From a virus, in IMG/VR virus record IMGVR_UViG_3300046460_000136, positions 1 through 55,671 of that record: 55,671 bases of DNA; one strand, written 5' to 3'. Of this stretch, positions 3,286-53,713 are shown piece by piece; the first letter of the stretch is position 1; the number at the start of each line of letters is the position of its first letter. A model generated the notes under the pieces. The model did no database searches. It saw nothing but the letters and a program-made list of their open reading frames with translations, and was not told the origin of the DNA. A program made the position numbers and the translations under genes.

Positions 3286-5283
3286 ATGACATCTCTAAAA
3301 ACACAGAGCGTTTTAAGCGCCGACAGTCACCTCATTCATCCGAAATACCGACCAGACATTGACGGCATGCGCGCAATCGCAGTTTTGGCTGTCGTCGGAT
3401 TCCATGCGTTCCCTGAGTTGATCACTGGCGGCTTTATTGGCGTTGACATCTTCTTCGTCATTTCGGGCTTTCTGATATCCACGATTTTGATGCAAAGCGC
3501 GGCACGTGGAACATTTCATATCGGAGAGTTTTACTCAAAAAGGGTAAACAGGATTTTCCCAGCGCTGATCGTTGTAATGGTGAGCGCGTACGCTTTTGGG
3601 TGGATGGCGTTCTTCACCGATGAGTTCCAGCAACTTGGAAAGCACATTGCTGGTGGCGCCTCTTTTATATCTAACCTAGTTTTGTTCGATGAAAGTGGCT
3701 ATTTCGACACTTCTGCCGAAATAAAACCCTTTCTGCATTTGTGGTCGCTGGGTATCGAAGAGCAGTATTATATTTTTTGGCCGTTGATTATTTGGGCTGC
3801 ATGGAAGCGAAACATCAACCTGTTGTTCATTGCAGTTATTATGTTTGGCGCGTCATTTGTCGCCAACATTGAGAACGTTCGCGAAAGCCCGTCCTATACT
3901 TTTTACTTGCCGCACACCAGAGTATGGGAACTGCTCATTGGCTCAATGCTGGCTTATGTCCACTGCTTCCCGCTTAAGGGCTTTCGAAAGCCAGCATTTA
4001 TCAGCAACCTGATGTCGCTGTCCGGTTTGGCGCTTATTGGTTATGGGATGGCTACCATTACCAAGGCAGATCAATTCCCGGGATGGGTCGCCCTCTATCC
4101 TACCGTTGGCGCCGCGCTCGTTATCGGCGCGGGGCCATCCGCCCTTTTGAACAAGCACGTCTTGGGAAATCGCGTTTTTGTTTGGTTTGGTCTGATCAGC
4201 TTTCCACTCTACCTGTGGCACTGGCCGTTGCTCACCTTCGCACGCATTGTGGAAAACGGCACACCGCCAGAAGATACCCGCATCACCTTGGTGCTGGCGT
4301 CGATCGTGCTCGCTTGGGCCACCTATCAGTTTGTTGAAAAGCCATTTCGCAACAAGAGAAACTGGAAGACCACCACTGGTCTCGTTGCTGCGATGACAGT
4401 CATCGGAGTCACCGGCTTCCTGACCTATCAAAATGCAGGTCTTCCTTGGCGCCCGAGCATTCAGAAAACTATCGCAGTACAAGATCAATTCGTAGGTTCG
4501 TCGTGGAAATACGCTGTCAATGACATTTGCCTGAATCGCTACCCATTCGAAGAGCGCAAAGACTTCGGCTATTGGTTTTGCATCACGAACAAAGACGCGA
4601 GCCCGACCATATTGTTGTTTGGTAGTAGTTACGCGAACCACCTTTATCCAGGCTTTGCCACAAATAGCGACCTTAAAAACAATACTGTTTTGAGTATCGG
4701 CGCCTGCGGTGTTGGCTCTCCGAAGTACTCTGACAAAACAATTCTGGGCGGCAATGACCCTTGCACAGGCTATCGTCCGGAACACCAAGAAAATCTGATT
4801 TTTGACATCATTGAAAAATCAAAAACAGTTAAATACGCCATCATTGATGGGCTCATTAACACACCCTACGGTGAGTTTTATATCTCGGTTGTTGAAGAAA
4901 GAATCGCACGCCTTCTCGCTGACAACGTAAAGGTTATTGTTTTTGTACCTCACATGACCTTTAACACTGACATCAAAGGGTGCTTCACGCGGCCACTGTT
5001 TTCCGGTATGAACGAAGGCTGTTCTGTTTCGATTGATAAAAAGAAGGAAGTCGACGACAGGTTTAAGCCGATGAAGGATGCAATCCTTGCAAAACACCCT
5101 TCAGTTCAATTCTTTGATCAGAACGAGCTAATCTGCAATTCAAGCAAATGCTCAATGGTGCTAGACGGGATGCCGATGTACCGGGATCAGTTCTATCATT
5201 ACTCTGAATACGCCAGCCAAAAGATGAGCGAGCTGTTCGCTGATTGGGCAAAGGACCACGCACCAGACATATTCAATCCGTAA
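3286..5283 (+). CDS. AT3-SGNH fused O-acyltransferase (665 aa)
   Basis: Two-domain enzyme of the OafA type. Residues about 20-370 form the AT3 membrane domain: RPDIDGMRAIAVLAVVGFHAF with the catalytic-type His, FFVISGFLIS, SKRVNRIFPALIV, then HLWSLGIEEQYYIFWP and WHWPLL. Residues about 420-665 are the SGNH hydrolase-like periplasmic domain, starting at LLFGSSYANHL and ending in the late D-x-x-(x)-H block (YRDQFYHYSEYAS). In known members AT3 exports the acetyl group and SGNH places it on the glycan. ATG follows ggag at a slightly long spacing. It reads opposite to the late genes and converges on Rz, overlapping its end by 11 bp. AT-rich cargo, likely serotype conversion. Confidence 0.92.
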   Translation: MTSLKTQSVLSADSHLIHPKYRPDIDGMRAIAVLAVVGFHAFPELITGGFIGVDIFFVISGFLISTILMQSAARGTFHIGEFYSKRVNRIFPALIVVMVSAYAFGWMAFFTDEFQQLGKHIAGGASFISNLVLFDESGYFDTSAEIKPFLHLWSLGIEEQYYIFWPLIIWAAWKRNINLLFIAVIMFGASFVANIENVRESPSYTFYLPHTRVWELLIGSMLAYVHCFPLKGFRKPAFISNLMSLSGLALIGYGMATITKADQFPGWVALYPTVGAALVIGAGPSALLNKHVLGNRVFVWFGLISFPLYLWHWPLLTFARIVENGTPPEDTRITLVLASIVLAWATYQFVEKPFRNKRNWKTTTGLVAAMTVIGVTGFLTYQNAGLPWRPSIQKTIAVQDQFVGSSWKYAVNDICLNRYPFEERKDFGYWFCITNKDASPTILLFGSSYANHLYPGFATNSDLKNNTVLSIGACGVGSPKYSDKTILGGNDPCTGYRPEHQENLIFDIIEKSKTVKYAIIDGLINTPYGEFYISVVEERIARLLADNVKVIVFVPHMTFNTDIKGCFTRPLFSGMNEGCSVSIDKKKEVDDRFKPMKDAILAKHPSVQFFDQNELICNSSKCSMVLDGMPMYRDQFYHYSEYASQKMSELFADWAKDHAPDIFNP

Positions 5284-48776: not shown

Positions 48777-49124
48777 TTAGAACTTGCTCGGGCACTTGAA
48801 GAGCTGAATGCTCGCGCTGCTCAGTTTTGGATAGCTACCCAACACATACAGCGTCTGCACATTCTTTTTCTGAGCTATGAACCCTTCACAGCTATATCCG
48901 CATGACGCACTTGTCGTGAAGCAAACATTTTCACCAGTCAGCTCATAGAGATCGTGAGGCCACGACAGGCAGTCGTATTTCCCGCCAACTGGACAGGTTA
49001 CCTGTTGAATGTCGCCAGCGGCCAGTATTTGGGACCCTGGAAGGCTTTGCATTTCGCCGTAGGCAAATGCGTGGGCACTGGATGCAACGAAACACGTCGC
49101 GAGTATCAGCTTCAAAAATTTCAA
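48777..49124 (-). CDS. Exported Cys-containing protein (115 aa), cargo
   Basis: TTG start with ggagctgcg upstream gives a signal peptide KFLKLILATCFVASSAHAFA and a mature protein with seven cysteines (for example CPVGGKYDC, SASCGYSCEG, FKCPSKF). It is read against the early genes, so it probably has its own promoter and is made in the lysogen. It shares the signal-peptide and disulfide features with the 17680 gene but is not related in sequence. Function unknown. Confidence 0.68.
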   Translation of the reverse strand: MKFLKLILATCFVASSAHAFAYGEMQSLPGSQILAAGDIQQVTCPVGGKYDCLSWPHDLYELTGENVCFTTSASCGYSCEGFIAQKKNVQTLYVLGSYPKLSSASIQLFKCPSKF

Positions 49125-49207
49125 CGCAGCTCCTTTATCCGGCTCCGTGCCGGGCCGAACACAAATACCCCACTTCAACGAATCACGCCAGCCGGCGAGG
49201 ATCCACA

Positions 49208-50131
49208 ATGCCTACAGCAATCGATTTGTTCGCCGGTCTCGGCGGATGGTCAACCGGTGCCCGCAATGCCGGTATCGACGTAATCTGGGCCGCCAATCAC
49301 TGGCCTGTCGCCGTCGAGTGGCACAGCGCTAACCACCCGAATGCAATTCACATCTGCCAGGACCTGCACCAGGCGGATTGGTCGAAGGTTCCTGCCCACG
49401 ACATCATGCTCGCCTCGCCTTGTTGCCAGGGGCATTCGAAGGCACGCGGCAAGAAGTCTGGGAACGCTCAGCACGACGCATCACGGTCAACAGCCTGGGC
49501 GGTTGTGTCGGCTGCCGAGTTCCACCGGCCGGAAGTGGTGCTGGTCGAGAACGTCGAAGAATTCACGGCCTGGGCCCTGTACCCCGCGTGGTCGCAGGCA
49601 ATGGCAGCGCTCGGCTACATGATCGCGCCCCATGTGGTCGATTGCGCGGATCTCGGCGTGCCGCAGCACCGGGTTCGCCTGTTTCTGGTCTGCACCAGGA
49701 GTAAAGCACCGCTGAACCTTCAGCTTCACCAGCGTCGGCATGTCCCAGCCTCATCCTTCATCGATTTCGACGCGGGCAAGTGGAGCAAGGTAGTGAAGCC
49801 TGGCCGCGCCGAGTCGACGCTGATCCGCGTGAATAATGGCCGGGAGCGCTTCGGTGATCGATTCATCATGCCCTATTACGGATCAGGCTCGGGTTTGACC
49901 GGCCGCAGCCTGGATAGGCCGATCGGCACCATCACCACGCTCGATCGGTGGGCCTTGGTGCGCGGTGATGAGATGCGAATGCTCTCGGCCAATGAGGCTC
50001 TTGCAGCCATGTCGTTCCCGGCTGACACAAAGCGCCCGGACAATCATAGGTTGACCATGCACATGGCCGGCAATGCGGTACCGCCGCTGGCGGGTCAGAG
50101 GATAATTGAAGCGCTACAAGCCGCTGCCTGA
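49208..50131 (+). CDS. C5-cytosine DNA methyltransferase (307 aa)
   Basis: DNA cytosine methyltransferase. Motif I DLFAGLGGWSTG (AdoMet), motif IV ASPCCQGHS with the catalytic Cys, motif VI VLVENVEEF, motif VIII QHRVRLFLVC and motif X MAGNAVPP are all present. The usual Pro of PCQ is replaced by Cys (CCQ), which I recall from other phage members. The variable region is short. No restriction enzyme is next to it, so it likely protects phage DNA. Target site cannot be read from sequence. ATG preceded by gagga. Confidence 0.9.
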   Translation: MPTAIDLFAGLGGWSTGARNAGIDVIWAANHWPVAVEWHSANHPNAIHICQDLHQADWSKVPAHDIMLASPCCQGHSKARGKKSGNAQHDASRSTAWAVVSAAEFHRPEVVLVENVEEFTAWALYPAWSQAMAALGYMIAPHVVDCADLGVPQHRVRLFLVCTRSKAPLNLQLHQRRHVPASSFIDFDAGKWSKVVKPGRAESTLIRVNNGRERFGDRFIMPYYGSGSGLTGRSLDRPIGTITTLDRWALVRGDEMRMLSANEALAAMSFPADTKRPDNHRLTMHMAGNAVPPLAGQRIIEALQAAA

Positions 50132-50136
50132 CACCT

Positions 50137-50289
50137 TCACCCGGTCTTCTTTTCGCCTTGCGGCTTCGGTGGTGGTGAGCTTGGTGGACTTTTCGGAAGT
50201 ACGCTTTGGATGTTGGTTGGATTGATGCCATCCCGAACGTGAATCCGCTGCCCACCTAAAACACTCGAACTGTTTTTGTCATTACTCAT
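50137..50289 (-). CDS. Tiny Pro/Ser/Lys-rich protein, partner of the DUF6338-like protein (50 aa)
   Basis: ATG with ggggagcg upstream. Its second half DGINPTNIQSVLPKSPPSSP, followed by PPKPQGEKKTG, is very similar in style to the next gene (LPKNPPKSPPSSSSKKP), so they look like a divergent tandem pair. No hydrophobic segment. It is the last of a three-gene leftward island of AT-rich DNA. Confidence 0.65.
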   Translation of the reverse strand: MSNDKNSSSVLGGQRIHVRDGINPTNIQSVLPKSPPSSPPPKPQGEKKTG

Positions 50290-50322
50290 TTTTTCGCTCC
50301 CCAGTGCATTTATCAGCTTAAT

Positions 50323-50472
50323 TTATTCAGCTGGCTTCTTTGATGAAGATGATGGCGGACTCTTGGGAGGATTCTTTGGAAGTATGTTACGAGGCATGAT
50401 CGGGTTAACATTCAAACCCTCATTTATGCTTTTTCGAAGCACCTCTTCAACAACTTTTTGCCTATCAGACAT
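50323..50472 (-). CDS. Tiny Pro/Ser/Lys-rich protein overlapping the DUF6338-like gene (49 aa)
   Basis: The ATG lies inside the end of the membrane-protein gene (8-bp overlap), so it is translationally coupled. Sequence: an N-terminal helix (MSDRQKVVEEVLRKSINEGL) and a disordered tail with ILPKNPPKSPPSSSSKKPAE. The tail resembles that of the following gene. The Pro-rich tails could bind a shared partner, perhaps the membrane protein. Confidence 0.68.
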   Translation of the reverse strand: MSDRQKVVEEVLRKSINEGLNVNPIMPRNILPKNPPKSPPSSSSKKPAE

Positions 50473-51076
50473 CTGAATCATCCTCTACTGGGTCAAGAAA
50501 CTCTGTCCACAAAACGTCTACCGAGGAAATTAACATAAATTCGATCCCCGTTGCTGGATCGAATTCATCATCCACAATCCAAGTCGGAAACTGCATCAAG
50601 TAATGACCTTTTTCTGGGTCGGTAGGCCACGACCTGGGGTACCCAGCAAGACGGCGCCCATCCAGAAATTGCAGGACGATCGCTCTGTCTTTCAGCGTTC
50701 GATGAGCAAACCTCCAGTCAGAGCCATCGGAAGACCTATGCGTAAGATTAAGCTTGCGACAAGCGGCGTATAGAATGTCATTGTTTGCAGCATGGGCCAA
50801 TGCGAGCCCCATAAGCACCGCCAACCCTGTGCTCCATAACGATAGGGTCTCGCTATTCCACTCGCCAAATGAATACCATTTGCCTACCCACAGCGCGACT
50901 GGCTCAATATATCTAACGATAAATTGAATTATAGCTGTCCCAATTAACGCCTGAATAATTCGCTCAAATTGTCCAGGCTTTGGTGAATCAGATAACCAAT
51001 AAAAAACAAAGGTAGCTAAAAAACCCGGCAAAACCAATTCTAAAAATGGGATTGCCTTTCCAAATAAATCTTCCAT
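50465..51076 (-). CDS. DUF6338-like membrane protein (203 aa), first gene of a cargo island
   Basis: Three N-terminal membrane helices (FLELVLPGFLATFVFYWLS, IIQALIGTAIIQFIVRYIE, LWSTGLAVLMGLALAHA) followed by a cytosolic domain of about 110 residues with DRAIVLQFLDGRRLAGYPRS and a WIVDDEFDPATGIEFMLISS part. The layout matches DUF6338 as I know it, a family without assigned function. The gene is AT-rich and reads against the early operon, with two small coupled genes behind it. Role in superinfection exclusion is a guess from position. Confidence 0.72.
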   Translation of the reverse strand: MEDLFGKAIPFLELVLPGFLATFVFYWLSDSPKPGQFERIIQALIGTAIIQFIVRYIEPVALWVGKWYSFGEWNSETLSLWSTGLAVLMGLALAHAANNDILYAACRKLNLTHRSSDGSDWRFAHRTLKDRAIVLQFLDGRRLAGYPRSWPTDPEKGHYLMQFPTWIVDDEFDPATGIEFMLISSVDVLWTEFLDPVEDDSDV

Positions 51077-51201
51077 TCGCAAAAATTCCCATTCTAAAAA
51101 TCAGCGCGTTGGCGCTAACACCAAGCGCGTCTGCGAGCTTAACTCGCCAAGATCAATAACCTCCAGTCAAACCTATAGCGCCATATCGGCGAGGTAATTC
51201 C

Positions 51202-51990
51202 ATGCCCACAGAAAACGAACCGGTAGGCACGTTCATTGTGCTTAGCCTGAAGCATACGCACCGCCGCCACAAAGCAATCACCCTCTGGCGGTCAGATGAC
51301 AGCGGCTACTGCTGGATGCTGAGCAGCGCCGGCCACTACGAAGAAGATCGAGTGCTCGAGCACCTTGGCTACTACAACAGCGGCTGCGCAAACGTCGCGG
51401 TACCTGCTGACCTAGTGGAACGGCTTTCCTGTGAGATTGAGTACGACACCAAGGAGTTTGGAATTTGCCTGCCAAACAACGCCAACACCTGGGCGCAACT
51501 GCTGGCCTGCGTGATCCGCCCCACCGATTACGAGCCAAAACCGGAGTATCGCGGCTGCCGCTATTCGGAAAACAGCATGTGGATGAAGTGCAAACGTTGC
51601 GAGCACGTCAACCTGGCGATCCGCATCATCGCCGATCACGGCCGCCGGTTCTTCTACAGCCAGACAGTGAATCGCTACGCCAGCATGGAGGTCGACGCCC
51701 GCGGCAAGGTCTGGTTTATCGACGATTACAGCGGCAAGCGCATATTCACGCATGACACGGTATGGGGTGGCCGGTGGCGCGGTTTCACTCATGGCGGCAC
51801 TCTGAAGGATGTGGTCAAAGCATTCCGTGATTACATCTGCACCGGCAAGCAGTTGCATCCTGGCTATCTCGGTCCGGAACGGTTCAACGACAGCAACATC
51901 TGGGGTTACGACGAAGAAGGCATGCGCGCGGTGCGTGAGCAGGCCAGCGCCCTGCCCCTCTTCCATCAGCCCGCAGCGGAGGTAGCATGA
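51202..51990 (+). CDS. Phage protein of unknown function (262 aa)
   Basis: Soluble protein with conserved-looking aromatic segments: FIVLSLKHTHRRHKAITLWR, SGYCWMLSSAGHYEEDRVLE, a CxxC pair in MKCKRCEHVN, and VWGGRWRGFTHGGTLKDVVK near the end. Not assigned to any family by me, but common in Pseudomonas phages. ATG preceded by gagg; overlaps the next gene by ATGA. Confidence 0.7.
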   Translation: MPTENEPVGTFIVLSLKHTHRRHKAITLWRSDDSGYCWMLSSAGHYEEDRVLEHLGYYNSGCANVAVPADLVERLSCEIEYDTKEFGICLPNNANTWAQLLACVIRPTDYEPKPEYRGCRYSENSMWMKCKRCEHVNLAIRIIADHGRRFFYSQTVNRYASMEVDARGKVWFIDDYSGKRIFTHDTVWGGRWRGFTHGGTLKDVVKAFRDYICTGKQLHPGYLGPERFNDSNIWGYDEEGMRAVREQASALPLFHQPAAEVA

Positions 51991-52728: not shown

Positions 52729-52970
52729 ACATTTACCGGCACACCTTTGCGGCTGTCTGCCCGTCCGACGGCGAACTGATCATCTATCAGTTGGAAGTTC
52801 GGTCGCCGGCAATGATCCGCGTCGAACACATCAAGGCCGCGACCGCGATCATCAAGAAAGGCTGGCACGAACACATTGCCGACCGCCTGGCCGAGGACAT
52901 CGGCGGCGATCAAACGATCATCGCCACTCACCAAGGCGTCGAAATCGAAACAGTGAGGCTTAGCGGATGA
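52725..52970 (+). CDS. Small early protein (81 aa)
   Basis: Beta-alpha protein MNIYRHTFAAVCPSDGELII, YQLEVRSPAMIRVEHIKAAT with an acidic helix GWHEHIADRLAEDIGG. ATG preceded by aagggg. Overlaps the TGT-like gene by 4 bp. No known function. Confidence 0.65.
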   Translation: MNIYRHTFAAVCPSDGELIIYQLEVRSPAMIRVEHIKAATAIIKKGWHEHIADRLAEDIGGDQTIIATHQGVEIETVRLSG

Positions 52971-53713
52971 TCCATTACCACGGCTTGCCGATCACACCAG
53001 AGACAGCGGCAGCCGCGGCAATCGGCGGCGGCCACGCCTTTGTGAGCTTCAGCGACCCTCGACAACTCGCCCTGGCGGCCCAAGTCTGCCAGTCGTTTGC
53101 CATCGACAACGGGGCGTTCTCCGCCTGGAAACAAGGCAAGCCCGTCTCCGACTGGAAACCTTTCTACCGCTGGGCGGCGGACGCCAAGCTGATTCCGGCG
53201 TGCGACTTCGCGGTGATACCTGACGTGATTGATGGCGATGAAAAGGCCAACGACGCATTGCTCGAAGAGTGGCCGCTGCCTCGATGGTTTGGTGCTCCGG
53301 TTTGGCACATGCACGAAAGCCTCGAACGGTTGGAGCGATTGGCGAGTGGATGGCCAAGAGTCTGCATCGGCAGCTCGGGTGACTTCTCACAGCCAGGCAG
53401 CGCCGCCTGGTGGGTGCAGATGGGAAAGGCTATGCGGGTGGTTTGCGATGATGACGGTCGCCCAATGTGCAAGCTTCACGGCTTGCGAATGCTCGACCCT
53501 GCAATCTTCGGCCATCTGCCGCTCTCGAGCGCCGACAGCACGAACATCGGTCGGAACATCGGCATCGATCAGGCTTGGCGTGGCACGTATTCGCCACCGA
53601 CCAAGGAAGCCAGGGCATCAGTGATGCGCAGTCGCATCGAGTCGCACAACTCGCCACCACGCTGGACCTACAACATCCCGGAAGTCGCGCCAACCCAAGG
53701 TGCACTGCTTTAA
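52967..53713 (+). CDS. TGT/DpdA-like protein, candidate DNA 7-deazaguanine transglycosylase (248 aa)
   Basis: Motifs recall tRNA-guanine transglycosylase and the phage DpdA group: FAIDNGAFSAWK (in the place of the catalytic-type D-S/N-G-G-F), FAVIPDVIDG with an Asp, VCIGSSGDFSQ, CKLHGLRMLDP (as HxxGxG-type) and SADSTNIGRNIG. The length is shorter than full TGT. No queuosine-precursor genes are next to it, so the host would have to supply preQ0. The call rests on motif resemblance only. Confidence 0.5.
   Translation: MIHYHGLPITPETAAAAAIGGGHAFVSFSDPRQLALAAQVCQSFAIDNGAFSAWKQGKPVSDWKPFYRWAADAKLIPACDFAVIPDVIDGDEKANDALLEEWPLPRWFGAPVWHMHESLERLERLASGWPRVCIGSSGDFSQPGSAAWWVQMGKAMRVVCDDDGRPMCKLHGLRMLDPAIFGHLPLSSADSTNIGRNIGIDQAWRGTYSPPTKEARASVMRSRIESHNSPPRWTYNIPEVAPTQGALL

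Follow-up and report, generated by a model that had tools for sequence, protein, structure and literature searches.

The closest described counterpart of the locus studied here comes from proteomics. In P. stutzeri ATCC 14405, mass spectrometry identified three Pro-rich proteins of fewer than 50 amino acids in a predicted DUF6338 operon, with 44 to 114 spectra per protein (Meier-Credo et al. 2023, PMC10433244). The authors regarded these proteins as restricted to P. stutzeri and possibly encoded by de novo genes. The mini-proteins were well detected while DUF6338 itself was undetected, in an analysis that left out membranes (PMC10433244). At least one species does produce such mini-proteins. 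That report gave no function, fold or pattern of heads and tails for these proteins. The survey presented here reveals that the pairing is widespread and under selection. The other relevant precedent is the defence hotspot that lies between gpA and gpQ in P2-like phages (PMC9122126). No other pertinent paper emerged from full-text searches on related systems.

The island that we analysed resembles the P. stutzeri operon (PMC10433244) in having a DUF6338 gene followed by genes for several Pro-rich mini-proteins. It sits in a Pseudomonas prophage, within a stretch of 55,671 nucleotides (IMG/VR record IMGVR_UViG_3300046460_000136) that was analysed at its full length and is called here the window. 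Its three ORFs are all on the minus strand and are flanked by rightward genes:

50465 to 51076, minus strand: DUF6338 membrane protein of 203 aa (PF19865, E 2.2e-10; hydropathy; models of homologues and Foldseek)
50323 to 50472, minus strand: mini-gene 1, 49 aa, MSDRQKVVEEVLRKSINEGLNVNPIMPRNILPKNPPKSPPSSSSKKPAE, with an 8-nt overlap with the DUF6338 stop and orthologues in loci L002 and L004
50137 to 50289, minus strand: mini-gene 2, 50 aa, MSNDKNSSSVLGGQRIHVRDGINPTNIQSVLPKSPPSSPPPKPQGEKKTG, with an orthologue in locus L002
50132 to 51183, no strand assigned: cargo slot, from the methylase stop to the ribosome site that serves the following rightward gene
49067 to 50131, plus strand: cytosine methylase, left flank of the island
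51202 to 51990, plus strand: phrog_23101 gene, right flank of the island

An earlier note, made from the letters of the window, had described three leftward, AT-rich genes within a rightward region, encoding a DUF6338-like membrane protein with three spans and two tiny proteins with LPK-type Pro-rich tails. This description was borne out. The coordinates were confirmed. With a GC content of 45.6% the island falls below the window as a whole (57.4%), and it ranks 30th lowest among 1095 windows of the same size. The membrane protein scores 40.9 bits against PF19865 (cut-off 26.5) over profile positions 11-203 of 205, and hydropathy gives three spans at about residues 2-32, 35-66 and 75-106. The tails carry the motifs LPKNPPKSPP in mini-protein 1 and LPKSPPSSPP in mini-protein 2. 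An alternative start for DUF6338, an upstream TTG at 51082, would add two residues. Both mini-genes are preceded by Shine-Dalgarno-like sites, one of GAGGA type for mini-gene 1 (about 50481-50485) and a GGGGAG for mini-gene 2 (about 50297-50302), the latter gene starting 33 nt past the former. The earlier note had inferred expression in the lysogen, which is putative: a promoter scan of the island region found no match to a sigma-70-like promoter. The interval that separates the DUF6338 start from the following rightward gene contains an imperfect palindrome, GCGCGTTGGCGCTAACACCAAGCGCG, at 51103-51131, where the same scan gave no match either; it is possibly an operator or a terminator.

The association between the two components extends far beyond this prophage. 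DUF6338 genes were gathered by profile or by DUF6338 similarity alone, ignoring the mini-genes, and the survey also took in plasmids, phages and 64 viral contigs. The distribution of DUF6338 is patchy: it was found in 61 of 399 Pseudomonas genomes and in 26 of 398 Pseudomonadota genomes, 20 of the latter being above the cut-off. The non-redundant set, whose members are more than about 10% apart in DUF6338, comprises 128 loci. When a mini-gene is defined as a Pro-rich ORF of 30-90 aa starting between -60 and +40 nt of the DUF6338 stop, 105 of these 128 loci have one overlapping or adjoining DUF6338, against 70 of 1819 other ORFs of the same loci (3.8%) that are followed by a Pro-rich tiny ORF. 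Of the remaining 23 loci, most have either an evident mini-gene whose tail fails the rule or a DUF6338 gene that is broken. In the most frequent arrangement, the mini-gene begins at position -1 as counted from the DUF6338 stop (23 cases). The reverse search gave the same picture: a mini-protein profile run against 249 Pseudomonas genomes gave 27 matches, 25 of them behind DUF6338. The idea that the mini-genes also occur independently was discarded, since the two other matches both looked spurious. One of the 25 mini-genes exposed a DUF6338 gene missed by the Pfam model (L196, 912-1499), adjoining phage tail genes of NlpC/P60 type. The earlier note had made its proposal depend on conserved co-occurrence of the small genes with DUF6338, and the co-occurrence is conserved.

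The pairing spans Pseudomonadota, Planctomycetota and Actinomycetota. It is found in Paludisphaera (Planctomycetota), where the mini-gene is absent from the gene table of the record, in Curtobacterium and Streptomyces among Actinomycetota, and further in Acinetobacter, Proteus, Mesorhizobium, Fluviibacter, E. coli and the Klebsiella phage pJN2-26. The DUF6338 subfamily of the window and the canonical one are homologous, as judged from a profile-profile probability of 97.4 (E 1.6e-11). No natural fusion of DUF6338 with a mini-protein tail was found among the loci surveyed. DUF6338 with one to six tiny Pro-rich partners looks like a widespread system, undescribed in the sources searched apart from the single-strain report (PMC10433244). 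The DUF6338 model also matched Haloferax volcanii, the archaeal control genome, in every control run.

Are these short ORFs genes, or by-products of Pro-rich reading frames? Pro-rich tails are not rare by themselves: 16 of the 228 short ORFs in the window (7%) have one, which is what the by-product reading has in its favor. Yet pN was lower than pS in 139 of 141 pairs of orthologous mini-genes (pooled pN/pS 0.20), a mark of purifying selection that is also visible in the window itself, where comparisons with the L002 orthologues gave pS 0.65 and pN 0.24 for mini-gene 1, and pS 0.51 and pN 0.24 for mini-gene 2. Together with the position conserved behind DUF6338, this selection means that the pairing goes beyond chance. 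That position is conserved across phyla, the P. stutzeri proteins were detected by proteomics (PMC10433244), and plasmid and E. coli records list mini-genes among their annotated genes. As a general explanation the by-product reading is refuted by these observations, and we find it hardly credible in any form. Our survey also corrects the published view of the Pro-rich proteins as de novo genes of one species (PMC10433244).

The mini-genes form arrays in which one end of the protein is constant and the other is variable. There are one to six copies per locus, with six in L153; the array totals are approximate and include a few chance ORFs (e.g., the last in L044 and L158, the second in L175 and L181). 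When paralogues of the same locus were compared using composition-preserving shuffles, the tails were related (z >3) in 43 of 53 pairs and the heads in only 6 of 53. The two mini-proteins of the window follow this pattern, and their relatedness, put forward in the earlier note, accordingly holds for the tails and fails for the heads. Tail style differs between subfamilies: that of the window has RPxxPPxxPPP..K, and the canonical one has GY[QT]P repeats that finish in a PPPKKP-like motif. The same note had suggested a switch or dosage function for the two related mini-proteins. Either is putative, and dosage fits poorly, because copy number ranges from one to six and the heads differ between paralogues.

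What could the membrane partner look like? In two viral homologues (L135 and L175), DUF6338 and the mini-gene lie in one frame, and we modelled them as stop read-through products joined to the mini-protein, with the stop replaced by Gly. These homologues are 33-40% identical to the window protein. Both models show, at high confidence, three long helices, followed by a short link that is also helical and by a barrel of six strands. The features that define the Sm fold, an N-terminal helix and a five-stranded barrel, are both present in these predictions. Among the 50 best PDB matches listed by Foldseek, nearly all were Sm/LSm proteins for both models (best E 4.6e-5 and 2.1e-4), and the target-normalised TM-scores of the first model reach about 0.87. 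DUF6338 is thereby predicted to consist of three membrane helices and a cytosolic domain of Sm/LSm fold, the fold of archaeal SmAP1, the spliceosomal Sm proteins and the LSm domain of Edc3. It differs from these proteins in that the domain stands behind three membrane helices and lacks a significant sequence match: searches with two profiles found no Sm protein of known structure at E up to 10, and no significant match to solved structures. The predicted order of the parts recalls MscS-type channels, where three membrane helices are likewise followed by an Sm-like beta domain. However, DUF6338 has no alpha/beta cage domain, and no MscS is among the 50 best structural matches listed. An SH3-like barrel binding PxxP ligands was also considered and set aside, the best Foldseek matches listed being Sm/LSm and not SH3; the DUF6338 barrel may bind peptides in an SH3-like manner. 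In both models the mini-protein part is predicted to be disordered save for the conserved tail: most of the rest has pLDDT 39-55, while the tail block reaches 70 (KAPPAAPDRN, L135) and 81 (APPPPKRQ, L175). This predicted ordering is consistent with docking of the tail on DUF6338 but does not prove it, as Pro-rich ends can score moderately in pLDDT anyway.

These elements suggest a mechanism in which tail-docked mini-proteins would act as adaptors on a membrane-anchored LSm-domain protein in conflicts between phages, a reading to which we give a probability of about 45%. DUF6338 would be anchored by its three helices, with the N terminus probably outside and the Sm/LSm-like domain facing the cytosol, and it could form a ring, as LSm proteins often do. 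The mini-proteins, mostly disordered, would each dock by their conserved Pro-rich tail on the cytosolic part of DUF6338, leaving the variable heads to serve as interchangeable sensors, baits or regulators of a shared membrane-side effector or scaffold. Upon infection by a competing phage, a head could be bound, modified or cleaved, which would change the state of DUF6338 and affect either the membrane or the incoming phage, resulting in abortive infection or exclusion. The system is probably meant for phage-phage conflict, since the pairing is conserved across distant bacteria, plasmids and phages, is often mobile cargo and sometimes stands beside anti-phage genes. The earlier note had proposed a complex with a possible defence role; the pairing that such a complex presupposes is observed, while the complex itself and its function are what we infer from it.

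The island is cargo, as the earlier note had proposed. In a related phage, Pseudomonas phage PseuP_224 (L202), the methylase is homologous to that of the window (75% identity) and ends at the same point, and the sequence before the next gene matches window positions 51183-51220. The space between these flanks is taken by a leftward ORF of about 110 aa (L202, about 4100-4430, starting MGEWSELASG), which is unrelated and possibly another cargo gene. The slot thus exchanges leftward cargo. In this it resembles the moron cargo of prophages and the hotspots of P2-like phages (PMC9122126), where short swappable loci also lie between conserved phage genes, but the window slot is in the early region, outside the hotspots described. 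The copy in a P2-like prophage of E. coli is also placed differently, on the integrase/repressor side and not between gpA and gpQ (PMC9122126). The pair was found in prophages, plasmids and Tn7-like cargo. In the E. coli prophages of ECONIH2 and BCE049, DUF6338 and a mini-gene, which in ECONIH2 encodes 47 aa, are likewise reversed, within a replication-gene region. Both prophages also encode a TIR protein, which in ECONIH2 matches the PADLOC candidate PDC-S35, and the ECONIH2 prophage encodes a SIR2 protein matching the candidate PDC-S25 (TIR/SIR2 region, L238 7323-11792). In BCE049, a 209-aa ORF of no known kind replaces the SIR2 gene.

Small prophage-encoded membrane proteins are classical exclusion factors, e.g., T4 Imm, P22 SieA and HK97 gp15. 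Hence, DUF6338 alone could block DNA entry by related phages, with the mini-proteins aiding its folding or stability, and a cargo unit reversed within the early region, a layout shared with E. coli prophages, would suit this function. However, helpers alone would not account for so constant a pairing, nor for mini-genes of such copy number and head diversity. Moreover, plasmids carry the pair as well, and some copies have CBASS, IetAS or E1/JAB genes as neighbours, settings in which the theme is not exclusion of DNA entry. We therefore consider single-protein exclusion quite improbable, and we favor the adaptor mechanism.

The neighbours of the pair bear on its role. Many DUF6338 loci are solitary. 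At others, the pair or the DUF6338 gene has neighbours associated with defence: IetA and IetS beside the pair in Paludisphaera, TIR and caspase genes with it on a Tn7-like element in Proteus, a CBASS cyclase and a 2TM effector preceding the DUF6338 gene in Mesorhizobium, E1/JAB genes in Acinetobacter and a CHAT gene in Streptomyces. DUF6338 has some likeness to the SLATT-type 2TM effectors of CBASS, which are small membrane proteins without enzymatic domain and, at some loci, with a signalling enzyme beside them. It differs from them in fold, in usually having no cyclase near and in its constant Pro-rich partners; no cyclase gene is present in an operon around the window island, and one was found only in L114. 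Searches of PADLOC gave no match for DUF6338 (window, L013, L003 and L043) or for the two window mini-proteins, neither PADLOC nor NCBIfam has a model for either component, and PHROGs did not match DUF6338 and matched mini-protein 1 at chance level only. Searches of phage DNA and proteins with the window island gave no matches.

In several of these neighbour systems one component is a protease (IetS, caspase, CHAT, JAB) by which an inhibitor could be removed, which brings to mind toxin-antitoxin systems: DUF6338 would be a membrane-damaging toxin, held inactive by abundant mini-proteins until their loss. The tight gene overlap, with -1 as the commonest start, agrees with this, and so does the good detection of the mini-proteins in P. 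stutzeri next to an undetected DUF6338, although that analysis left out membranes (PMC10433244). Yet antitoxins do not usually come as arrays of up to six partners with unrelated heads, a protease neighbour is lacking at most loci, and the toxicity is only putative. We rejected the notion of a constant partner system with a protease, as most loci stand alone. We thus hold a toxin-antitoxin arrangement to be unlikely relative to docked adaptors acting in inter-phage conflict.

Other loci lie beside ordinary genes. At two of them (L210 and L214), the pair is placed after grpE and ahead of dnaK, as an insertion into a heat-shock operon; in L210, dnaK and dnaJ are the genes that come after it. These two loci in grpE-dnaK operons call for caution on a defence role. 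They could indicate an accessory of the membrane or of proteostasis, in which a membrane-bound LSm protein would hold RNA or chaperone clients and act as a mobile fitness gene, not in defence. The best matches of the predicted domain are to RNA-binding Sm proteins, in line with this. Against it are the patchy distribution among Pseudomonas genomes, the frequent location in prophages, plasmids and transposons, and the defence neighbours in several unrelated hosts, so that we deem such an accessory role unlikely. The suggestion of defence or exclusion made in the earlier note therefore has circumstantial backing, from the mobile locations and from the CBASS, IetAS, E1/JAB and caspase/TIR neighbours, and is weakened by the loci beside ordinary genes. 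These defence neighbours are observations at individual loci, and the role could also be a general one in the envelope or in stress.

If the adaptor model is true, it would amount to a new route to diversity of recognition, in which disordered proteins of very small size are combined with a membrane component that they share. One could go further and imagine a modular system, whose arrays would plug into one LSm-domain membrane complex by the constant tail, each head detecting or engaging a different phage trigger, with the mobile element adapting by gaining, losing and diversifying adaptors of 50 residues; this extension is speculative and we think it rather doubtful. Arrays with variable heads and constant tails make the adaptor model testable by head swaps, and the unit to clone is the whole array rather than DUF6338 alone. 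In any case, a Pfam family without function gains constant partners, a predicted fold and an architecture.

Finally, the surroundings of the island include a further gene with a recognizable match. At 52967-53713 of the window, the plus strand matches phrog_887 (E 8e-73), whose annotation is queuine tRNA-ribosyltransferase. Together with the cytosine methylase at 49067, this gene hints at DNA modification by the phage.
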